A program made the translations under genes and the position numbers. From IMG/VR virus record IMGVR_UViG_3300042945_000816, positions 1 through 22,127 of that record: a stretch of DNA of 22,127 nucleotides. One strand, given 5' to 3'. Shown here piece after piece: positions 2,912-13,113 of the stretch. The notes beneath the pieces were generated by a model, which searched no databases, was not told the DNA's origin, and saw only the letters and a program-made list of their open reading frames with translations. This stretch comes from a virus. Each line of letters begins with the position of its first letter. Position 1 is the stretch's first letter.

Positions 2912-3437
2912 AGAAGATTTAGTTAAGCACCTTGATCAGGTAAACACTGTTGTCAGTGAATACTTAAAAGGTAATGACCCAACAGTAATTTCTAAAGAGT
3001 TAGATATTCCACGCACCCGTGTTGTTACTTTAATTAATGAGTGGAAGGCTATGGCATCTGACAACTCTGCAATCCGTGCTCGTGCTAAAGAAGCCCTTGT
3101 TGGAGCAGATACACACTATACTAAACTTATCTCTAAGTCATATGAAGTTATTGACGAAGCATCTATGACTAATAATCTTAGTGCAAAGACTGCTGCTATT
3201 AAACTAGTAATGGATATTGAGTCAAAAAGAATTGATATGCTGCAAAAGGCTGGCCTTCTTGAGAACAAAGAACTTGCTGAAGAAATGGTTGAGATTGAGC
3301 GTCGTCAAGAAGTTCTTGTTGGAATCCTTAGAGATATTGCATCAGAACATCCAGAGGTTCGTGATATTATCATGCAAAGACTTTCTGCGATTGCAAAAGA
3401 GGGAGAAGTGATTACAGTTGTCCACGATGTTCAATGA
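2901..3437 (+). CDS. terS: Terminase small subunit-like protein
   Basis: This 178-residue protein sits immediately upstream of, and overlaps, the large terminase gene. The N-terminal region (about 8-50) contains a helix-turn-helix: NDPTVISKELDIPRTRVVTLINEW. It is followed by long helices (about 55-150) rich in charged residues, as expected for the oligomerisation core of small terminases. Its job would be to recognise phage DNA and load the large subunit. The assignment rests on the HTH-plus-helical architecture and the adjacency; sequence identity to known small subunits is not obvious by eye. The 11-20 nt overlap with the next gene suggests coupled translation. Confidence 0.7.
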   Translation: MSTEEDLVKHLDQVNTVVSEYLKGNDPTVISKELDIPRTRVVTLINEWKAMASDNSAIRARAKEALVGADTHYTKLISKSYEVIDEASMTNNLSAKTAAIKLVMDIESKRIDMLQKAGLLENKELAEEMVEIERRQEVLVGILRDIASEHPEVRDIIMQRLSAIAKEGEVITVVHDVQ

Positions 3438-5202
3438 TTTTCTTGAAGTACTAAAAGAGAATCATTTTATAGAAAAGCCTGTAGACGCAAAGACATTTGT
3501 TGAGTCTCCAGACTATCTTGGTCAACCACCACTTTCGGATATTCAGTATCAAATAGTAGAGGCAATGAGTCAGATCTATCGTAAAGAAGATCTTATAGAT
3601 ATTATGGGGGATGATGGAGAAGCATACTTTAATAAATACACAAAGAATGAAATCATTCTCCAACTTGGCAAGGGATCTGGAAAAGACTTCGTATCAACTG
3701 TAGCCTGTGCCTATACAGTATATAAACTTCTATGCCTTAAGGACCCTGCTATCTATTATGGAAAGCCTGCAGGAGATGCCATTGATATTATCAACGTTGC
3801 TATTAACGCACAGCAGGCTAAGAATGTTTTCTTTAAAGGTTTTAAATCAAAGATTGAAAGATCCCCTTGGTTTGCTGGAAAGTTTAATGCCAAGGCAGAC
3901 TCAATTGATTTTGACAAATCTGTAACTGTTTACTCTGGTCACTCAGAGCGTGAATCACATGAGGGTTTGAACCTATTCATGGCAGTGCTTGATGAAATTT
4001 CTGGTTTTGCATCAGAGGTTGGAACAGGTAATGAACAGGGAAAGACTGCTGAAAATATCTATAAAGCATTTCGTGGTACTGTAGATTCTCGTTTTCCTGA
4101 TCTTGGCAAGGTTGTTTTGCTTTCATTCCCCCGTTATCAGGGTGACTTTATTTCACAAAAGTATGAATCAGTAATTGCTGAAAAAGAAACTGTAGAGCGT
4201 AAGCACACCTTTATTATGAATCCAGATTTGCCACATGAGGATCCAGGAAATAGGTTTGAAATTTCTTGGGATGAAGACACAATACTTTCTTATAAAATTC
4301 CAAGAGTGTTGGCATTTAAACGACCAACCTGGGAAGTAAATCCTACCCGCCAAATTGATGACTTTAAGATTGCATTTTACACAGACCTTGCAGATGCCAT
4401 GATGCGTTTTGCATGTATGCCCACCTATGCTTCTGATGCTTTCTTTAAAGACAGAACCAAACTAGAAAAGGTTATGACACTTCGTAATCCATTAGATCAG
4501 TTTAGAAGGTTTGACGAATCCTTTAAACCAGACCCAGACAAGGTTTATTATATTCATGCTGACCTTGCACAAAAGCACGATAAGTGTGCAGTTGCAATTT
4601 CTCACGTAGATAAATGGGTAAATATTCAGGTAATCAAGGACTATGAACAGGTAGCCCCAATGGTTGTGGTAGATGCTGTTGCTTGGTGGGAACCAAGAGC
4701 AGAAGGACCAGTTAACTTGTCTGATGTTAAAAATTGGATTATCAACCTTCGCAGAGAAGGATTTAACATTGGCATGGTTTCTTTTGACCGTTGGCAGTCG
4801 TTTGATATTCAAAATGAATTGCAGGCGGTAGGAATAAGAACTGAAACAGTTTCTGTTGCGAAGAAACACTATGAAGATTTAGCAATGATGATATACGAAG
4901 AGCGTGTAGCAATTCCTATGATTCCAATCTTGCTAGAAGAAATGTCTGAGTTAAAGATTATGAAGGGTAATCGTGTAGATCACCCTAGAAAGAAGTCTAA
5001 AGACTTGGCAGATGCATTGGCTGGATCAGTATTTGGGGCTATATCACATACCCCAAAGACTGCTAATACAGTTATTGAAGTACACACTTGGTCTTCTTCT
5101 TCTGCTCAACTTGCAGAGAAACGTAGATCTATGGTAGAATTAGAGCCTAAGCAAATGACGGACGATGTTCGTGATTTCTTAGACAAGTTCAACTTAATAT
5201 AA
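3427..5202 (+). CDS. terL: Terminase large subunit (packaging ATPase-nuclease)
   Basis: The protein has about 591 residues. Walker A is GKGSGKD (about 81-87, after IILQL). Walker B is LFMAVLDE with the acidic pair at about 189-190. A coupling-motif-like stretch follows in LLSFPRY. The C-terminal RNase H-like nuclease shows YYIHADLA (D379), MVSFDRWQS (D454) and KSKDLADALAGS (D526/D529), so all catalytic acids appear present. It translocates DNA into proheads and cuts concatemers. In-frame TTG 3418 is 12 nt from AGGGAG (3400-3405); ATG 3427 has no site of its own but lies within the terS overlap. Portal and capsid genes do not follow, which is unusual. Confidence 0.92.
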   Translation: MFNDFLEVLKENHFIEKPVDAKTFVESPDYLGQPPLSDIQYQIVEAMSQIYRKEDLIDIMGDDGEAYFNKYTKNEIILQLGKGSGKDFVSTVACAYTVYKLLCLKDPAIYYGKPAGDAIDIINVAINAQQAKNVFFKGFKSKIERSPWFAGKFNAKADSIDFDKSVTVYSGHSERESHEGLNLFMAVLDEISGFASEVGTGNEQGKTAENIYKAFRGTVDSRFPDLGKVVLLSFPRYQGDFISQKYESVIAEKETVERKHTFIMNPDLPHEDPGNRFEISWDEDTILSYKIPRVLAFKRPTWEVNPTRQIDDFKIAFYTDLADAMMRFACMPTYASDAFFKDRTKLEKVMTLRNPLDQFRRFDESFKPDPDKVYYIHADLAQKHDKCAVAISHVDKWVNIQVIKDYEQVAPMVVVDAVAWWEPRAEGPVNLSDVKNWIINLRREGFNIGMVSFDRWQSFDIQNELQAVGIRTETVSVAKKHYEDLAMMIYEERVAIPMIPILLEEMSELKIMKGNRVDHPRKKSKDLADALAGSVFGAISHTPKTANTVIEVHTWSSSSAQLAEKRRSMVELEPKQMTDDVRDFLDKFNLI

Positions 5203-5245: not shown

Positions 5246-6952
5246 ATGAATTCATTTAAGAAAATTGCCCTAGGACTCGCTGCAGCAATGTCCTTCGGCG
5301 TTATGTCAGCACTTCCGACAAGTGCTGCTGTAATTCAGCCAACACTAACAATTGATTCTGCTACAGATTCAATCGTTGCTGGTGAGACTGCTACAGCAGT
5401 GGTCACATTATCATTTATTTCAGAAACAGCAGCAGACACGGCAACCGTGCTATCTGCTATTTTTGCACAGCCAGTAGGCTCATCAAAGAGCGCAACGCTC
5501 TCATTGCTTGAAACAACAACCTCTGTAGTTACAATTGCAGCAGGAAACCTTTCAGCAGATATTAATTCAACAGTTGGAACACCAGGATTTGTGACTGCAA
5601 AGTTCACAGTTTCATTGGTTGCACCAACAGTTGCGGGTACCTATGAAGCAAGAATTCTTACAACCCGCCCAGCAACAGGTCCATCCGTTGCATGGACAGT
5701 AACAGTTAAAGCAGCAGATGTTACACCTTCTGCAGCAACAACAACCTCAATCCTTAATGCAGGCGAAGTTACAACTGCAACCGCAGACGCTACAGTATAC
5801 GCACCAAAGGCTACTTCTACAGATGCAGCAGCAGTAATTGTTGTTACACCTAAGAATGCAGCAGGCGGAGCAGCAACTGAGTCAATTCTTGCAACAGTAT
5901 CAGGAACAGGTATGATTGGTTTTGGCACAAATGCCACAACAATGACCTCTGTTGGTCGTTCTCTAGTCATCCCAGCAGGAAATCACATTGGTGTATTTGC
6001 TGACGGTACAGCAGGAGTATCAACAATTACTCTTACAACACTTACAGGTGCAGTTCTTGCAACTGAGAAGGTAACATTCTACGGAGATATCGCATCTATC
6101 GTAGCAACAGCAGTCAAGCCTGTTATCGCTACTGGAGCAAACACTTCAACAATTAAGGCAGTAGCATACGATGCTTCTGGTGTAACAGTTGGAGCAGGCA
6201 CACTTAACGCTTTCTCAAGCGATGTTTCAGTGGTATCCGATTCAGGAACTGCAGCATCAATCGTAAATGGTGAAGCAGTATTTACTCTTACAGGAGTAAA
6301 GACAGGTGGAGTCGCTGTAACTGTTAAGTCAGGTACAGTATCATCTGCTCCAGTTGCTGCTCGTGTAGAAGGAACTGCAGCAACAGTTAAGTTGTCATTT
6401 GATAAGGCTAAGTACCTTCCAGGAGAAGCAGCAATTGTTACAGTTCAGGTTCTAGATGCAGCAGGCCTTCCAGTATCTGGTAAGACACACGCTAATCTAT
6501 TTGCTACAGGTGGAATTGTTTCTAACTACGCATTTGGATCAGCATCTGATGTACTAACAGCGACTTCTGTTACAACAGATACAGCAACAGTTAAGACCTA
6601 CAAGGTCTTTATGCCACTTGTACAAAATACAATTAAGATTACAGCAACTGGTGGATCATCTCTTCCAGTAGCAGGTCAGGTTGTAGTTTCTGCAGAGGCA
6701 CTTGTTGAAGATTCTGCACAGAAGGCAGCAACAGATGCAGCAAAAGAGGCTTTAGATGCTTCTAATGCAGCAACAACTGCAGCACTTGATGCAGCAAAAG
6801 CAGCAGATGCTGCCACAGCAGCAGCACAAGCAGCAACAGATGCAGTTGCAGTTCTTTCAGAGTCTGTAACCAAGTTGATTGCTGGACTTCAAGCACAAAT
6901 TAAATCACTTGCAGCAGCAGTTGCAAAGATTGCTAAGAAGGTCAAGGCATAA
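5246..6952 (+). CDS. Large secreted Ala/Thr/Val-rich surface protein with C-terminal coiled coil
   Basis: This 568-residue protein has a textbook signal peptide: MNSFKK, then a hydrophobic core and PTSA|AV cleavage near 27. The body (about 30-480) is poor in Cys and charged residues and rich in Thr, Val, Ala and Ser with beta-strand rhythm. It looks like stacked Ig-like/invasin-like beta-sandwich repeats; for example AKYLPGEAAIVTVQVLDAAG near 395-415 is a typical bacterial Ig-like strand pattern. The last ~75 residues are an Ala-rich heptad coiled coil ending in basic KIAKKVKA. The whole resembles S-layer or cell-surface proteins of small actinobacteria more than a virion protein. The ribosome site is good (AAGGAG) and a strong terminator follows, so it is its own highly expressed unit. 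The role is unknown; host-surface remodelling and superinfection exclusion are inferences. Confidence 0.75.
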   Translation: MNSFKKIALGLAAAMSFGVMSALPTSAAVIQPTLTIDSATDSIVAGETATAVVTLSFISETAADTATVLSAIFAQPVGSSKSATLSLLETTTSVVTIAAGNLSADINSTVGTPGFVTAKFTVSLVAPTVAGTYEARILTTRPATGPSVAWTVTVKAADVTPSAATTTSILNAGEVTTATADATVYAPKATSTDAAAVIVVTPKNAAGGAATESILATVSGTGMIGFGTNATTMTSVGRSLVIPAGNHIGVFADGTAGVSTITLTTLTGAVLATEKVTFYGDIASIVATAVKPVIATGANTSTIKAVAYDASGVTVGAGTLNAFSSDVSVVSDSGTAASIVNGEAVFTLTGVKTGGVAVTVKSGTVSSAPVAARVEGTAATVKLSFDKAKYLPGEAAIVTVQVLDAAGLPVSGKTHANLFATGGIVSNYAFGSASDVLTATSVTTDTATVKTYKVFMPLVQNTIKITATGGSSLPVAGQVVVSAEALVEDSAQKAATDAAKEALDASNAATTAALDAAKAADAATAAAQAATDAVAVLSESVTKLIAGLQAQIKSLAAAVAKIAKKVKA

Positions 6953-7085: not shown

Positions 7086-9488
7086 TTGGTGGGACTATTA
7101 GTGGTTTTGTGGCTTATCATAGCCCCATTTGACCATGCTGGTGCAAATGAAGAAGTGACAGTACAAGTTTCAACATCAGAAACATCAACAGCAATTATTT
7201 CTGCAGGATCAATAATAACAATTGAAAGCGCAACAGCCGTTATTGAGGCAGCACAGACTGCAATAACTCAGGCTGAAACTGCCACGGCAGTCATAGAAAC
7301 CCAAGCAACAGCCATTACAAGCCCTACAGAGACCATTACAGCCACTATCACACAGGCTCAGGACTCAATATTACAGGCTCAGACAGTAGTAGATAGTGCT
7401 ACTGCGGCTGTGGCTCAAGTTGATTCTGCTACTGTTTTGGTTGCTGAGGCTGAAGAAAGTGTACAGATTTTACAAATAGCAGTAGACTCACAGACTGTAA
7501 CAGTATCTATTGATCAGGGAGTTCTTACAGTAAAGCAGTCTGAACTAGATACCCTTGAAAGTGCTGGAAATCCCACAATAAATTATACAACTCCAGGATA
7601 TGTTGCCCCTATATCAGACTCATCTACAGCAACATCTGTTACCCTGCAACCTATGTGGGATGCCTCTACTCAGATACAGGTGCCATTTGATATTAAATTA
7701 GGAGACACTTTATTTAATGGACAAGGAACAAATAGCCAGGTATATGTAAGTTCTAAGGCTATTATTTCATTTGGTGGAGCAGACTATACATACTGGGGAT
7801 GGCCAAATGCAACTCAAGATGGAATATATGTTTTTCAATCAGATTATATGAGTGCTGGCACAGGTGCATCTATTGTAGTTACAACTACAGATACGACCCT
7901 AAAGGTTGATTGGGTTTTACATAGATTTGGCGATTCAAATGGACCACTTACATATATTACGTGGGACATGACTGTTAATCCAGAAACTGGTCTATGGACT
8001 GGAACTGGAACCATGTCTGGCAATACTGATGTTTATGGTGGTCCAAGAACTGGAATAAGACAAGATAATATTTTAACAGAATTAACACCAACGACTACTG
8101 GATATGATCAAGAAGCAGTAGAAGCAAAACAAGAAGAAGTTGATATTGCAGAAACAGAACTTGCCACTGCACAGCAGGCTTTAACTATATTACAAAATGA
8201 TTTAGAATCATCACAAGATGAACTTGAACAAGCACAAATAGATCTAGAGCAGGCAGAAGATAATTTAGAGTCTGCGCTTTTAGCAGTAGGTGTTGCTATA
8301 TCAGAAATGAATACAAGTATAGACGAAGCAAGAATATTGGTTAGCACTACCTTAGCAGAAGAAGAAGCAGAAAGAGTAAGAGTTGCAGAAGAAGCAAGGT
8401 TAGCAGAGATTGCAAGATTAGCAGCCATAGAAGCAGAAAATGCTCGCATTGCTGCACAACAGGCTTATGAAGCAGAGCAAGCAAGAATTGCTGCAGAGGC
8501 TGCACGAGTTGCTGCACAGCAAGCATATGAAGCAGAGCAGTCTAGGATTGCAGCAGAAGCAGCACGAGCAAAGGCTGAGGCAGAAGCCAAGGCAGCAGAA
8601 GAAGCAAGAGTTAAAGCAGAGGCAGAAGCAAAAGCCGCTGCAGAAGCAGCAGCAAAGGCTGAAGCAGAGCGTATAGCAGCAGAAGAGGCTGCAAAGAAAG
8701 CAGAAGAAGAAAGAATTGCTGCAGAAGAAGCAGCCGCAAAAGCCAAGGCAGAAGCAGAAAAGGCTGAAGCAGATAGACTAGAAGCGGAAGCAAAGGCAAA
8801 GGCAGAAGAAGAAGCCAAAGTAAAGGCTGAGTTAGAGGCAAAGATTAAGGCTGAGGAAGAAGCCAAGAAGTTAGCGGAAGAAAAAGCGGAGCAAGAAGCA
8901 AAGGCTAAGGCAGAAGCAGATGCTAAGTTAAAGGCAGAGCAAGAGGCAAAGGCTGAGGCTGACAAGGCTAAAGCAGAACAAGAAAGATTAGATAAGTTAG
9001 CAGAAGAAGCCCAGGCTGGGAAAGAATTATCTACTGAAGAAAAAGCGGTAGTAGTAGAAGCACTTGTAGCAAACCTTCAACCAGGACAATCTATCTCAGC
9101 AGCAGAAGTACAGGCATCTGGTGTTTCATTTGCAGATCTTCCACCAACAACCCCAGTAGAACTTCGCACAGATGAAAATGGAAATGCCCTTGTCATTACT
9201 GCAGAGGTTGCTGCAAATGTTGAATTAGTTCAAGATCCAGGAGCGCTATTAGAGGCGGTATTTACTGATCCAGGAGCAGCCTTAGCAGCATTTGGAAGTA
9301 TTGGTGCAGATATGACAGAAGAAGAAAGAGAAGAAGCAAAAGATATGGTTATAGCAACAGTTGTTGCAACAGGTGCAGCACTAAACGCTGTTGGCCTTGC
9401 AGCAAGTGGTTCTGCACCCGCAGCCCCAGCAAGTGGTTCAAGTACTGGTGCAAACTCAGGCGGTTCTAGGAGGACTGAAAAATGGTAA
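7086..9488 (+). CDS. ~800-aa secreted coiled-coil protein with TolA-like Ala/Glu/Lys region
   Basis: Residue numbers are from TTG 7086. A hydrophobic segment (1-19) ends at AGA|NEE, as in a signal peptide. Next comes a Thr/Ala/Val heptad region (about 24-160), then a beta-rich aromatic globular domain (about 185-335, WDASTQIQVPFDIKLGD and YTYWGWPN). A long coiled coil follows (about 340-640) dominated by EAKAKAEAEA-type repeats. A conserved-looking C-terminal domain (about 645-775, DENGNALVITAEVA and GSIGADMTEEEREEA) precedes a Gly/Ser tail ending RRTEKW. From TTG, the signal peptide lacks its usual positive N-region. Reading back to ATT 7059 would add MKSFLLKSG and restore it. The tail overlaps the next gene by 7 nt and encodes its ribosome site. 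It could be a periplasm/wall-spanning rod or adhesin; its function is unproven. Confidence 0.75.
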   Translation: MVGLLVVLWLIIAPFDHAGANEEVTVQVSTSETSTAIISAGSIITIESATAVIEAAQTAITQAETATAVIETQATAITSPTETITATITQAQDSILQAQTVVDSATAAVAQVDSATVLVAEAEESVQILQIAVDSQTVTVSIDQGVLTVKQSELDTLESAGNPTINYTTPGYVAPISDSSTATSVTLQPMWDASTQIQVPFDIKLGDTLFNGQGTNSQVYVSSKAIISFGGADYTYWGWPNATQDGIYVFQSDYMSAGTGASIVVTTTDTTLKVDWVLHRFGDSNGPLTYITWDMTVNPETGLWTGTGTMSGNTDVYGGPRTGIRQDNILTELTPTTTGYDQEAVEAKQEEVDIAETELATAQQALTILQNDLESSQDELEQAQIDLEQAEDNLESALLAVGVAISEMNTSIDEARILVSTTLAEEEAERVRVAEEARLAEIARLAAIEAENARIAAQQAYEAEQARIAAEAARVAAQQAYEAEQSRIAAEAARAKAEAEAKAAEEARVKAEAEAKAAAEAAAKAEAERIAAEEAAKKAEEERIAAEEAAAKAKAEAEKAEADRLEAEAKAKAEEEAKVKAELEAKIKAEEEAKKLAEEKAEQEAKAKAEADAKLKAEQEAKAEADKAKAEQERLDKLAEEAQAGKELSTEEKAVVVEALVANLQPGQSISAAEVQASGVSFADLPPTTPVELRTDENGNALVITAEVAANVELVQDPGALLEAVFTDPGAALAAFGSIGADMTEEEREEAKDMVIATVVATGAALNAVGLAASGSAPAAPASGSSTGANSGGSRRTEKW
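8437..8965 (+). repeat. Degenerate tandem repeats encoding EA(K/R)AxAE coiled coil
   Basis: About 530 bp of GCAGAAGAAGCAAAGGC-like sequence repeats with 15-60 nt periodicity. The clearest pair is a ~60-bp unit encoding IAAxxAYEAEQARIAAEAAR, seen at about 8449-8508 and 8509-8568. This is a low-complexity region prone to recombination and assembly error. Confidence 0.75.
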
Positions 9489-9653: not shown

Positions 9654-9953
9654 ATGAACAGTATCACAAACATTTGGAATATTCTTATGCGTATTGTTGC
9701 GGTATTCGCAGCAAATGCATTAGCAGTAATCGGTGCTGGCGCAATCGCAGGAATCTCAGTAGCAAAGGCTATGACAGTTGCAGGCCTTAGCGCAGTAGCA
9801 GTTGTTGTTGAGAAGTTGGCTCGTGCATTTATGGATGACGGAAAACTTACAAGAGATGAAATCAATGCAGCATTTTCTACCACAGATAAAAATGCAGTAA
9901 CAGTGCAAGATGCAGCAGTTGAGAAGCGCAGAAAAATATCAAAGACAGCATAA
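9654..9953 (+). CDS. 99-aa membrane protein with EF-hand-like DGKLTRDEI motif (holin candidate)
   Basis: Two hydrophobic stretches (about 9-33, IVAVFAANALAVIGAGAIAGI, and 38-54, AMTVAGLSAVAVVVEK) are followed by DDGKLTRDEINAAF (about 61-74). That motif resembles the second half of an EF-hand calcium loop. A basic C-terminus (EKRRKISKTA) follows. A strong GGAGGAGG site precedes ATG 9654, which comes one base after the previous stop. It is probably a small inner-membrane protein. Holin is a reasonable guess from size and layout, but the true lysis gene (endolysin) lies 2.5 kb downstream, so an association with the secreted coiled-coil protein is equally likely. Confidence 0.7.
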   Translation: MNSITNIWNILMRIVAVFAANALAVIGAGAIAGISVAKAMTVAGLSAVAVVVEKLARAFMDDGKLTRDEINAAFSTTDKNAVTVQDAAVEKRRKISKTA

Positions 9954-9973
9954 TTAAACATCTTTGACCCTAT

Positions 9974-10003
9974 TTGACAGCCCCTTCCAGGGAATGGTAT
10001 ACT
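9974..10003 (+). promoter_or_regulatory. Consensus sigma70-type promoter for the Ntn hydrolase gene
   Basis: TTGACA (9974-9979), an 18-nt spacer, then TATACT (9998-10003) within TGGTATACTT. This is a perfect -35 with an extended -10. The start is predicted near 10010, giving a leader of about 24 nt that contains GGGAGGGG before ATG 10034. Confidence 0.9.
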
Positions 10004-10033
10004 TGAATATATCGCTTTGGGAGGGGTTTCTGC

Positions 10034-10564
10034 ATGACTTGTATTGCAGTTGTTCGTGATGAGTTAAACAATAAGATCTACATGGCTGGAGATCGTGGGG
10101 CATCTGATGATGGAACCATTTTAGCACTATCTAGCCCAAAGGTTTGGAAACTAGGACCCTATCTTATTGGGTATGCTGGCTCAATGGACGGAGAGAGAAT
10201 TCGCTATAACTTTAACCCCTATGTACCAGACATTAAAGATACAGATAAGTTTATGCAGACTAAGTTTATTAAACAACTTAGGGCATTCTATAACGACTTT
10301 TGGGTTGACACATCTAAGGATGGAGATCTTGGTTTGATAATTGCTGTTCGTGGACAAATCTATGAGCACAGTTCTGGCGATATGTCTTTGTCTAAGTATA
10401 CACTTCCTTATCTTGCTATGGGGTCAGGTGCTGAATATGCTTATGGATATTTAAATGCCACAGAAAAAACAAAAGACGCTAGAAAGCGTGTTGTTGGTGC
10501 AGTAAATGCAGCCATTAAATTTAGCCCATCCTGTATGGGTCCAGTTGACGTAGTAAGCGTTTAG
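10034..10564 (+). CDS. Proteasome/HslV-like Ntn hydrolase (threonine protease)
   Basis: This 176-residue protein begins MTCIAVVRD. Removal of Met would expose Thr as the nucleophile, as in proteasome beta subunits and HslV. The family triad is visible: T2, D20 in YMAGDRGAS (equivalent to Asp17) and K36 in SSPKVWKL (equivalent to Lys33), followed by the strand LIGYAGSMDG. The length matches single-domain HslV (about 175 aa). The family forms ring-shaped threonine peptidases. No ATPase unfoldase partner is encoded nearby, so it may borrow a host ATPase, act alone or modify a phage protein. It has its own consensus promoter and strong ribosome site. Specificity is unknown; an Ntn amidase of another type is an alternative. 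Confidence 0.75.
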   Translation: MTCIAVVRDELNNKIYMAGDRGASDDGTILALSSPKVWKLGPYLIGYAGSMDGERIRYNFNPYVPDIKDTDKFMQTKFIKQLRAFYNDFWVDTSKDGDLGLIIAVRGQIYEHSSGDMSLSKYTLPYLAMGSGAEYAYGYLNATEKTKDARKRVVGAVNAAIKFSPSCMGPVDVVSV

Positions 10565-10573
10565 GGGTATACT
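10545..10573 (+). promoter_or_regulatory. Promoter predicted to give a leaderless mRNA for the gene at 10580
   Basis: TTGACG (10545-10550), a 17-nt spacer, then TATACT (10568-10573). Only 6 nt separate the -10 box from ATG 10580, so the expected transcription start coincides with the A of the start codon. The promoter overlaps the end of the Ntn hydrolase gene. Confidence 0.8.
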
Positions 10574-10579
10574 TTTAAT

Positions 10580-10771
10580 ATGCATAAAGAAGATGACATA
10601 GAAGATGCAGAATTTGGTATCTGGCTAACAAGCGGTATTGAGCGGGGATGGATCTCAGACCCATACTGCAATACTCACGATGGTGGATACCAATATATGG
10701 ATGAAGAAGAAGTTCAAGAATGGGAAGACGGTGGCGACCCATGTTGTCATGTAGTCCGTCTAATGATATAA
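10580..10771 (+). CDS. 63-aa acidic hypothetical protein, probably translated from leaderless mRNA
   Basis: This protein is very acidic (EDDIEDAEFG, MDEEEVQEWEDGGD) with residues that might bind a metal: DPYCNTHDGG (C30 and H33) and DPCCHVV (C55, C56 and H57). It has no signal peptide or membrane segment. Similar small Cys/His acidic proteins occur in actinobacteriophages, but no function is known to me. The nearest purine-rich stretch (AGGGG at 10563-10567) is 12 nt upstream and would lie outside the predicted transcript. Confidence 0.7.
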   Translation: MHKEDDIEDAEFGIWLTSGIERGWISDPYCNTHDGGYQYMDEEEVQEWEDGGDPCCHVVRLMI

Positions 10772-10781
10772 GGAGAAAAAA

Positions 10782-11660
10782 ATGAAAAAAATAGCAGTGG
10801 GGCTTATGGCAATTCTAGGTTTAGTTTTGCTTCAACCTGCAAGTGCATCAACAGAAAAATCAATTGTAATTATTGATACAGCAATTGATTCCTCTATTCC
10901 TCAACTAAAAGCAAAGTTAGTACAAGAGGTATGTATTTTAGATAGTAGACCATGCCTAAATGGAACCAAGTTTCAAGAAGGCCCTGGATCTGCAACATTA
11001 CCATCTTCACAGGCACTGACTGGTGGATTTGAGCATGGAACAATTATGTCTCTTATTGCAAATAAGGTCAACCCAGATGTTAATATTATATTTATTCGTA
11101 TTGCTGGGGTATTGCCAAATGGTAAAATTTCTACCTTTAGCGATATTGAAATAGCAAGAGCGCTTGATTGGTCAATTGCAAACAAGCAAAAGTATAACAT
11201 TGTTTCAGTATCTGCATCTTTAGGAAATCACAATCTACGATCTGGCGCAAACTATTGTCCAATAACCACAAGACATGATTCACTGATCAAAAATATTGAC
11301 ACATTGTCTTCTATGGGTGTTGCTACAATGTTTGCTGCAGGTAATAATAGAGATATTGCTAGGGTTAATTTCCCAGCATGTATTCCTTCAGCAGTAACCA
11401 TTGCTGGAGCAACTGCAGATAAAGCAATTTCTCCATTTTCAAATGGAGGACCTGCTGTAGATTTTTATGCTCTTGAGTCATTTGATACTCAGGTAAAAAG
11501 ATCTGTTGGAACATCAGCAGCAACAGCAGCATTTTCTGCATATTGGGCTAAAAACTACAAGGGTACATATCAATTAACATATGACTATATGAAGTCTATT
11601 AGCCAAAAAGCGGTTGGTCGTAATACACAAACTAGTGTATTTGTGGACATACTAAAGTAA
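10782..11660 (+). CDS. Secreted subtilisin-like serine protease (S8 family)
   Basis: This 292-residue protein has a signal peptide (MKKIAVGLMAILGLVLLQPASA, cleavage near 22). The S8 catalytic set is complete: D32 in VIIDTAID, H85 in GGFEHGTIMS, oxyanion N188 in MFAAGNNRD and S245 in VGTSAATAAF. There is almost no propeptide between the signal and the catalytic domain, and the domain (about 265 aa) is compact. A GGAG ribosome site precedes the ATG, 10 nt after the previous gene. The enzyme is exported and would cleave extracellular or wall-associated proteins. Phages rarely carry S8 proteases. Maturation of the phage-encoded secreted proteins or digestion of host surface proteins are inferences. 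The tRNA cluster follows immediately. Confidence 0.88.
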   Translation: MKKIAVGLMAILGLVLLQPASASTEKSIVIIDTAIDSSIPQLKAKLVQEVCILDSRPCLNGTKFQEGPGSATLPSSQALTGGFEHGTIMSLIANKVNPDVNIIFIRIAGVLPNGKISTFSDIEIARALDWSIANKQKYNIVSVSASLGNHNLRSGANYCPITTRHDSLIKNIDTLSSMGVATMFAAGNNRDIARVNFPACIPSAVTIAGATADKAISPFSNGGPAVDFYALESFDTQVKRSVGTSAATAAFSAYWAKNYKGTYQLTYDYMKSISQKAVGRNTQTSVFVDILK

Positions 11661-11667
11661 AAGGTTT

Positions 11668-11743
11668 TGGTCTGTAACTCAGTTGGTAGAGTGGCGAACT
11701 GTTAATTCGCAAGTCGCAGGATCGAGGCCTGCCAGACCAGCCA
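11668..11743 (+). tRNA. tRNA-Asn (GTT), CCA encoded
   Basis: Acceptor TGGTCTG (11668-11674) pairs with CAGACCA (11733-11739). The anticodon loop CTGTTAA has GTT at 11701-11703. The T stem GCAGG/CCTGC has the unusual loop ATCGAGG (A rather than T at the first loop position). Discriminator G is followed by an encoded CCA (11741-11743). Confidence 0.93.
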
Positions 11744-11744
11744 A

Positions 11745-11818
11745 GCGGATATTGCATAGTGATAGTGCGTAACCTTGCCAAGGTTAATGTGCGGGTTTGA
11801 TTCCCGCTATCCGCTCCA
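11745..11818 (+). tRNA. tRNA-Gly (GCC), CCA encoded
   Basis: GCGGATA (11745-11751) pairs with TATCCGC (11808-11814). The anticodon loop TTGCCAA has GCC at 11777-11779. The T arm is GCGGG-TTTGATT-CCCGC. Discriminator T and CCA are at 11815-11818. It is separated from tRNA-Asn by a single base. Confidence 0.93.
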
Positions 11819-11819
11819 A

Positions 11820-11891
11820 GGCCCTATCGTCTAGTGGTTAGGATACCAGGCTTTCATCTTGGTGGGCAGAGTTCAATTCTCTGTAGGGCTA
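11820..11891 (+). tRNA. tRNA-Glu (TTC), CCA not encoded
   Basis: GGCCCTA (11820-11826) pairs with TAGGGCT (11884-11890), with the first pair G-T as is common in tRNA-Glu. The anticodon loop CTTTCAT has TTC at 11853-11855. The T arm is CAGAG-TTCAATT-CTCTG and the discriminator is A. CTG rather than CCA follows, so this tRNA needs host CCA addition while its two neighbours do not. Confidence 0.92.
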
Positions 11892-11898
11892 CTGATTC

Positions 11899-11962: not shown

Positions 11963-12379
11963 ATGGTAACACAGTTCGCTATGGATCTTTTCAATGATCC
12001 TTTTTTTATTGGATTCAACAGAGAGTTGGGTCGTCTTAATACAGCACATAAAACAAATACAACATCATATCCTCCATATGATCTTCTTAAGTTAGATGAA
12101 GATACATATAGAATTTCTATTGCTATTGCAGGATTTTCAAAAAATGATATTAATGTATCTGTAGATAATGGAACATTAATTATCAAGGGAGAGATTGTTG
12201 AAGTAACAGATGCTGAAGTTGTTCACAAAGGCATTGCAGGTCGTAAGTTCACACGATCATTTGCTCTTGGAGAATACATGGAAGTAACTGGGGCTGAGAT
12301 GAAGGATGGTATGCTACATATTAATGTAGATCGTATTATTCCTGAAGACAAAAAGCCTAAAACTATTAAGATAAAGTAA
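11963..12379 (+). CDS. Small heat-shock protein Hsp20 (alpha-crystallin family)
   Basis: This 138-residue protein has the layout of class-A IbpA-type small heat-shock proteins. A short N-terminal arm (PFFIGFNREL) leads to YPPYDLLKLDEDTYRISIAI at about 36-55, where the alpha-crystallin beta-sandwich begins, with GTLIIKGE and HKGIAGRKFTRSFAL inside it. A C-terminal IKI motif (TIKIK) completes it. It acts as an ATP-independent holdase for unfolding proteins in the cytoplasm. Phage-borne Hsp20 genes are known, especially from aquatic phages, and are thought to help virion assembly or host proteostasis. The gene has its own promoter, an AAGGGGA ribosome site and a ~49-nt leader that can fold weakly around that site. 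Confidence 0.93.
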   Translation: MVTQFAMDLFNDPFFIGFNRELGRLNTAHKTNTTSYPPYDLLKLDEDTYRISIAIAGFSKNDINVSVDNGTLIIKGEIVEVTDAEVVHKGIAGRKFTRSFALGEYMEVTGAEMKDGMLHINVDRIIPEDKKPKTIKIK

Positions 12380-12468: not shown

Positions 12469-13113
12469 ATGGCTGTCAAAGGCTCATTAGAAGCAATCAT
12501 TGAAGTTGCAAAGAAAGAAGTAGGGACTATTGAAGGCCCTAAAGATAATGAAACAAAGTATGGTAAATGGACTGGAATGAATTTTCAGCCATGGTGCCAA
12601 TCGTTTGTTTCGTGGTGTGCGTTCACATCTGGCTTAAATCCAAAGAAGTATCCAAAGTCTGCATCAACAGTAGCAGCATCAGATTGGTTTAAGAAAAATA
12701 ATCGTTGGGCAGATGCTCGCAATGATGATCCAACACCAGGAGACTGGATTTATTTTGATTTCCCAGAAGATGGTGTAAATCGTATTTCACATGTTGGTAT
12801 TTGCATCAAGAATAATGGCGATGGAACAATCCAGGTTATTGAAGGAAACACTTCAGGAACTGCAAAGGGAGACCAGCGCAACGGAGGAATGTGCGTAGAG
12901 AAGACTCGTGCATATGTTAAGAACAATAAAAAGAAGTTGATCAACGGAATTGTTGGTTGGGGTCGCCCAGTCTACACTGGTGAAGAAGACCTTCCACTAC
13001 TAAACAAGTTGGCAGCAACTGAAGCACCAGCACCAAAGAAAGAGTCAGCAAAAACTGTGAAGCCTGTAGTAAAAAAGTCTTCAGGTGGCTCTAAGGCAAA
13101 TCAGGTTAAGTAA
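12469..13113 (+). CDS. CHAP-domain endolysin (peptidoglycan hydrolase)
   Basis: This 214-residue protein has a CHAP-type amidase/endopeptidase domain (about 5-150). The nucleophile is C43 in FQPWCQSFVSWC, the base is H108 in RISHVGIC, and the polar partner lies in VIEGNTSG (E125/N127). GDWIYFDF is the typical strand before the His. A low-complexity Lys/Ala/Pro/Ser tail (about 175-214) may bind the anionic wall. No signal peptide is present, so release to the wall needs a holin; candidates are the small membrane proteins at 9482, 9654, 18430 and 18599. It has its own promoter and a consensus AGGAGG site, consistent with strong late expression. The next gene begins right at the stop, on TTG. 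Confidence 0.9.
   Translation: MAVKGSLEAIIEVAKKEVGTIEGPKDNETKYGKWTGMNFQPWCQSFVSWCAFTSGLNPKKYPKSASTVAASDWFKKNNRWADARNDDPTPGDWIYFDFPEDGVNRISHVGICIKNNGDGTIQVIEGNTSGTAKGDQRNGGMCVEKTRAYVKNNKKKLINGIVGWGRPVYTGEEDLPLLNKLAATEAPAPKKESAKTVKPVVKKSSGGSKANQVK

Follow-up and report, generated by a model that had tools for sequence, protein, structure and literature searches.

The viral DNA analysed here (the window: positions 1 to 22,127 of IMG/VR record IMGVR_UViG_3300042945_000816, a fragment of 22 kb) encodes on its plus strand a real and probably active, stand-alone proteasome-like threonine peptidase of the Ntn type (10034..10564, 176 amino acids). Its relatives suggest that freshwater viruses of one family, the hosts of which are probably actinobacteria, have this peptidase as a standard gene. 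What is new here is that the conserved promoter of the peptidase gene is nested in a hairpin by which the ribosome-binding site would be masked on RNA that reads through from upstream.

Fold, active site and family of the peptidase

The open reading frame is intact in the window, running from an ATG at 10034 to its end at 10564 as 176 codons plus a stop, and the protein is as long as E. coli HslV (531 nt in L224), in agreement with the original prediction. The gene had been placed at 9974 to 10564. Its end was correct, but the frame opened at 9974 meets a stop codon upstream of the ATG at 10034, so that 9974, the first base of a −35 box, marks the promoter and not the start of the gene.

The residues that had been matched to the Thr/Asp/Lys triad of the proteasome (Thr2, Asp20 and Lys36) are all present. 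Among close relatives, Thr2 is found in 90 of 90 sequences and Lys36 in 91 of 91, and Gly46, Gly49 and Gly130-Ser131-Gly132 are unchanged across all 91; position 20 is occupied by aspartate in 82 of these and by glutamate in the other 9. A set of 24 divergent relatives is invariant at Thr2, Asp20, Lys36, Gly46, Gly130 and Gly132. Glutamate in place of Asp20 was observed in L009, L011, L015, L026, L031, L032 and L093-L095, as well as in the 47%-identical L220; this substitution is seen in several branches, with Thr2 and Lys36 constant throughout. By its position, and from the sequences of the Thermoplasma and HslV proteins, Gly46 is presumably the equivalent of the oxyanion Gly47 of the proteasome. 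A propeptide is absent, so that loss of Met1 alone would lay the threonine nucleophile bare; such a loss has been demonstrated for BPH by mass spectrometry (PMC5777263).

The relationship to known proteasome families is remote, since the match of the window protein to the Pfam Proteasome family falls below the cut-off (17 bits versus 22.4) and a search of the PDB with the single sequence gave no clear answer. The NCBIfam HslV models TIGR03692 and PRK05456 did not match the window protein at an E value of 0.01, and the profile of PHROG 1040 ('peptidase HslV family') matched it over residues 1-175 (E 1.7e-20). We constructed an alignment of 24 divergent viral relatives, which was used both as a profile against the PDB and as input for AlphaFold2. 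The profile matched HslV (E 1.1e-11, Thermotoga chain) and BPH (E 1.1e-10), and in these matches Thr2 of the family was aligned to the mature Thr1. The AlphaFold2 model, of a monomer, reached a pLDDT of 93.3 and a pTM of 0.89; it replaced an earlier model made from 10 near-identical sequences, which had a pLDDT of 60. All helices are present in the new model, among them both helix 53-59 and helix 70-88. When it was searched with Foldseek, the top match was BPH (TM 0.80, E 3e-12), followed by HslV (TM 0.76). The structural comparison with HslV and BPH that had been proposed as a check therefore returned a proteasome-type Ntn fold for the model, and neither a different fold nor loss of Thr2 or Lys36 among homologs was found. 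Together, the predicted fold, the conservation of the active site and the family match bear out the original assignment to proteasome-like threonine peptidases.

By profile, BPH and HslV score alike, and the modelled fold is slightly nearer to BPH (PDB 5ovs, 5ovt, 5ovu). The window protein also shares with BPH the Thr/Asp/Lys/Gly/Ser active-site set, the absence of a propeptide and the absence of an unfoldase partner; it differs in sequence, with 17-22% identity in the structural match, and in origin, BPH being bacterial and the window protein coming from a phage. The likeness to HslV consists of the length, the fold and a full-length profile match, whereas hslU is absent from 13 related phage records and the dedicated HslV models are unmatched. 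The HslV component of HslVU forms a double hexameric ring, and BPH a double heptameric one. Members of PHROG 1040, which come from T5-like, Vibrio, Moorella and other phages, belong to the same profile family and carry the same active-site residues, but those of the distant phages that were compared are only 24-33% identical, and their genes often lie among nucleotide-metabolism or replication genes, whereas the gene in the window lies between holin-like and Hsp20 genes. Proteasome-like proteins that are more distantly related and carry the annotation 'protease' are also encoded by Microbacterium phage Pumpernickel (L141:6001-6540) and Arthrobacter phage Hum25 (L142:6001-6528).

Phage proteasome homologues as such were already described in 2021 by Fuchs, Alva and Lupas (PMC8665760). 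Of the groups in that survey, PPH proteins are about 140 residues long and lack the second helix (H2), and AAH proteins, which occur in alpha-proteobacteria, Actinobacteria and many phages, are compact, with four helices and no propeptide; Actinobacteria-specific phages with AAH were not found (PMC8665760). Membership in PPH is ruled out for the window protein by its 176 residues and by the presence of both early helices in the model. The window family resembles AAH more than PPH, as judged against the published description of the group, for which the AAH reference is WP_035979212: its members are about 176-180 residues long, begin with Met-Thr without a propeptide, have four helices and occur in phages, and relatives that align over the full length are located on plasmids of Rhizobium, Sinorhizobium and Streptomyces, which is the distribution of AAH. 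Identity to these proteins is nevertheless only about 26-33%. On the phylogenetic tree, the window family forms a branch of its own (support 100/99) outside the Rhizobium, Sinorhizobium and Streptomyces plasmid relatives, at about 30% identity.

A promoter within a hairpin

The original prediction had described a perfect TTGACA with an extended −10 upstream of the gene, and both are present on the plus strand, the −35 box TTGACA at 9974..9979 and the extended −10 TGG-TATACT at 9995..10003 (hexamer 9998-10003), with a spacer of 18 nt between −35 and −10. Matches of the promoter type in the window alone were not above chance (10 found versus 11 expected), and the claim of a promoter therefore rests on conservation in relatives. 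Of 88 scored relatives, 78 have the pattern TTGAC[A/T]-17/18-TATACT upstream of the peptidase gene, and 82 have a TG ahead of the −10.

This promoter is enclosed by an inverted repeat (9979..10028, plus strand) that is predicted to form a 20-bp hairpin, with a lower stem of 9979-9992 paired to 10015-10028 and an upper stem of 9995-10001 paired to 10008-10014. The 5' arm of the hairpin is the promoter spacer, and the 3' arm contains the Shine-Dalgarno sequence of the peptidase gene, GGGAGGGG (10019-10026, plus strand). An RNA spanning 9970-10036 is predicted to fold at −26.6 kcal/mol (z −3.7), which no shuffled sequence equalled; an RNA starting after the −10, and hence truncated at its 5' end, shows no unusual structure (z about 0).

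Of 77 distinct leaders, 52 have a −35/−10 spacer whose bases complement those of the Shine-Dalgarno region, and the pairing energies are bimodal, the 52 being strong (mean −22 kcal/mol) and the remaining 25 having nearly none (weaker than −5.5 kcal/mol). For the 52 strongly pairing leaders, drawn from 77 unselected ones and not corrected for kinship, pairing of each leader's own arms exceeded that of permuted arms in 10,000 of 10,000 permutations. The 47%-identical L220 retains the hairpin with different bases on both arms (GCCCTCTC/GAGAGGGC). We give more weight to the permutation test and to L220 than to an alignment of 44 leaders, because the latter was selected for stability of the fold and showed modest covariation, likewise uncorrected for kinship.

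The hairpin follows the upstream holin-like gene. It was found in 50 of 50 loci in which a holin-like gene ends within 90 nt, compared with 1 of 19 loci that had enough sequence but no holin-like gene found nearby, and in four loci where a gene has been inserted after the holin-like gene, the hairpin and promoter stay behind the holin-like gene and before the insert. The switch is thus no special feature of the peptidase gene; whichever gene comes next, its Shine-Dalgarno sequence always lies in the 3' arm. The hairpin may lock the ribosome-binding site or terminate the holin-like transcript, and it may do both. The suggestion that it is mainly a terminator of the holin-like gene, combined with a promoter for the next gene and not a lock, is a serious one, which we rate as quite possible if short of probable; it would explain why the element is tied to the end of the holin-like gene in the 50 loci and remains there in the four with an insert. 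The tail after the stem is, however, short in U (UUUCUGC), and the constant inclusion of the next gene's Shine-Dalgarno sequence in the 3' arm corresponds to the arrangement of T4 gene e; the two functions may also coexist.

In the leader of T4 gene e (lysozyme), this layout is proven, read-through RNA being locked and locally started RNA being translated (PMC3014915). The leader in the window is similar in that a promoter lies within the 5' arm of a hairpin covering the ribosome-binding site. It differs from T4 gene e in that its promoter is of the sigma-70-like type with an extended −10, where T4 has a late promoter, and in that the gated gene, as recognized from sequence and folding, is the one after the holin-like gene, usually the proteasome homologue. 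If the hairpin acts as a lock, read-through RNA from the holin-like gene would have its Shine-Dalgarno sequence folded away, and RNA from the peptidase's own promoter, without the 5' arm, would be translatable. Expression of the peptidase would then be decoupled from the upstream late or lysis transcript. Of the earlier proposal that the gene is strongly expressed, the promoter is upheld by its conservation and the word 'strong' is not, because the hairpin would block translation of read-through RNA; 'separately timed' appears to be the better reading of peptidase expression in this lineage.

Neighbouring genes and occurrence

Close relatives of the peptidase are encoded on more than 480 IMG/VR stretches. 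None turned up when 84,980 genomes of bacteria and archaea were scanned with two patterns. Contigs were also gathered by their terminase, so that their selection was independent of the peptidase gene; among these, the gene is at the same place in 19 of 19 contigs with at least 5.8 kb of downstream sequence, down to 47% identity. Comparison with close relatives gave dN/dS values of 0.03-0.06, indicative of purifying selection, although these values are rough, because dS approaches or exceeds 1 in several pairs. The terminase large subunit of the window (3418..5202, plus strand) is closest to those of Streptomyces phages, with 53-55% identity, which supports an actinobacterial host, at a level broader than the acI lineage named in the original prediction. 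The peptidase had no match in PADLOC to a defence or counter-defence family.

To describe the local genomic context, the gene order is a coiled-coil protein, the holin-like protein, the peptidase, a 63-residue open reading frame, a subtilase or another secreted protein, Hsp20 and a CHAP endolysin. The holin-like gene (9654..9953, plus strand, 99 amino acids), directly upstream of the peptidase, matches the holin family phrog_443 with an E value of 1.2e-4; its best match is to phrog_26427, labelled as a nuclease (E 8.6e-25). The 63-residue open reading frame (10580..10771, plus strand) follows the peptidase in 55 of 67 loci and has no family match. A promoter-like TTGACG-17-TATACT is situated at 10545-10580, within the 3' end of the peptidase gene; its TATACT ends 6 nt ahead of the ATG at 10580, and given this short distance the mRNA of the small open reading frame may be leaderless.

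The next gene (10782..11660, plus strand) encodes a putative secreted subtilase (S8) with a signal-like N-terminus. This slot holds a subtilase in 33 of the 67 loci and an unrelated secreted protein in 24, and the two never occur together. The alternative protein (cluster 26, for example L047:9094-9768) likewise has a signal-like N-terminus and is unrelated to the subtilase. Three adjacent tRNA genes (Asn gtt, Gly gcc and Glu ttc; 11668-11892) separate the subtilase from the gene for the small heat-shock protein Hsp20 (11963..12379, plus strand), which is present in 56 of the 67 loci, and the CHAP-domain endolysin is encoded at 12469..13113 (plus strand). The Hsp20 neighbour suggests, by synteny, a role of the peptidase in proteostasis.

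Two further conserved proteins are encoded upstream. One of them, a late-region protein at 5246-6952, has a signal peptide and alanine-rich repeats; it matched no family, and a pattern scan of bacterial genomes yielded no relative of it. The other, at 7086-9488, has 800 amino acids, with an Ala/Glu/Lys-rich coiled-coil-like stretch and no family match, and is found in all 47 loci that extend far enough upstream.

Proposed working of the peptidase

We regard it as reasonably probable that the protein is a stand-alone, propeptide-less group I threonine peptidase (AAH-like, with the HslV/BPH fold), standard in one actinophage lineage, that works as follows. The host methionine aminopeptidase would strip Met1, exposing Thr2 as the nucleophile; Asp20 and Lys36 would activate Thr2, and Gly46 would form the oxyanion hole. 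The subunits would probably form a ring that encloses the active sites. The most likely activity would be the ATP-free cutting of unfolded or small proteins during infection, as has been proposed for BPH and for the uncapped 20S proteasome, given that no AAA+ motor was found in the phage. A caution comes from BPH, the nearest relative with a solved structure: inhibitors bound its Thr1, but it was inert on standard peptides and casein, so that an intact active site is no proof of useful peptidase activity (PMC5777263).

The absence of an ATPase partner, which was part of the original prediction, is supported by 13 related phage records, the window being itself only a fragment of 22 kb: a search of these records, three of which are about 112 kb long, gave no match to PF07724 (AAA_2/HslU) and none above cut-off to PF00004. 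Two sub-threshold matches to PF00004 were considered as a possible phage AAA+ partner and set aside, the one that was read, in L101, being an APS-kinase/nucleotidyltransferase-like open reading frame.

HslU is the partner of HslV, which gave the second-best match in structure, and any motor for the window protein would have to be the host's. A host AAA+ protein (HslU-, ClpX- or Mpa/ARC-like) might accordingly dock on the phage ring and redirect host-powered degradation to regulators or defence proteins. We consider this unlikely, since Fuchs et al. (2021) found no AAA+ partners co-occurring with the new proteasome homologues (PMC8665760) and BPH is without the HslU interface (PMC5777263).

Somewhat less likely still, in our view, is a highly specific processing enzyme or a protein ligase, with, for instance, a single phage or host protein as its substrate, in place of a degrader. 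The superfamily does contain a ligase, connectase (PMC8665760), and BPH shows no general protease activity (PMC5777263). However, the helical insertion between S3 and S4 that is typical of connectase is absent from our model, and connectase is without H1 and H2, whereas our model contains helices 53-59 and 70-88. A head-maturation substrate is likewise improbable. Two large related records encode an S78/XkdF head-maturation protease (L132:9668-11056 and L137:256-1605; phrog_9427 with E about 1e-113, PF04586/PF14550), the genes for which adjoin portal and capsid genes. The presence of this dedicated enzyme makes processing of a capsid protein by the peptidase, a use that the earlier proposal of a phage-protein substrate would have included, unlikely, and it rules out the peptidase gene as that of the capsid-maturation protease. 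A B12-dependent ribonucleotide reductase and a ferritin-like (Dps-type) protein were also observed in a related 112-kb phage record (L132:13165-15195 and L129:11595-12092).

That the protein is a degenerate, inactive proteasome fold retained for a structural or binding role seems very improbable: the change of Asp20 to glutamate in several branches and the inertness of BPH in standard assays (PMC5777263) would fit it, but Thr2, Lys36 and the glycines are constant in the 91 close and 24 divergent relatives, and the gene is under strongly purifying selection.

Returning to ATP-independent cutting by a stand-alone peptidase, a fuller version may be put forward, which we offer as speculative. According to this version, an ATP-independent phage proteasome ring would be a separately timed, standard tool of an abundant freshwater actinophage lineage and would represent the first actinophage-wide branch of the AAH type. 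It would work without an unfoldase on proteins that are unfolded or that are held by the Hsp20 of the same phage, and it would be switched on only from its own promoter, read-through RNA being locked.

Judged from sequence, the window family adds a new branch, divergent and regular in its occurrence, to a kind of phage gene that was already known, and its leader is likewise of a known regulatory type, here in a new location. Phage proteasome homologues have been described since 2021, none with a known function. The present branch is standard, syntenic and under strong purifying selection in probable actinophages, among which the 2021 survey had no specific AAH phages. Its set of neighbours (the holin-like gene, Hsp20 and the endolysin), together with the promoter-hairpin, make the timing of the peptidase testable. 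The branch is thus more than one further entry in a list, and offers a tractable case for learning what a proteasome does without an unfoldase.
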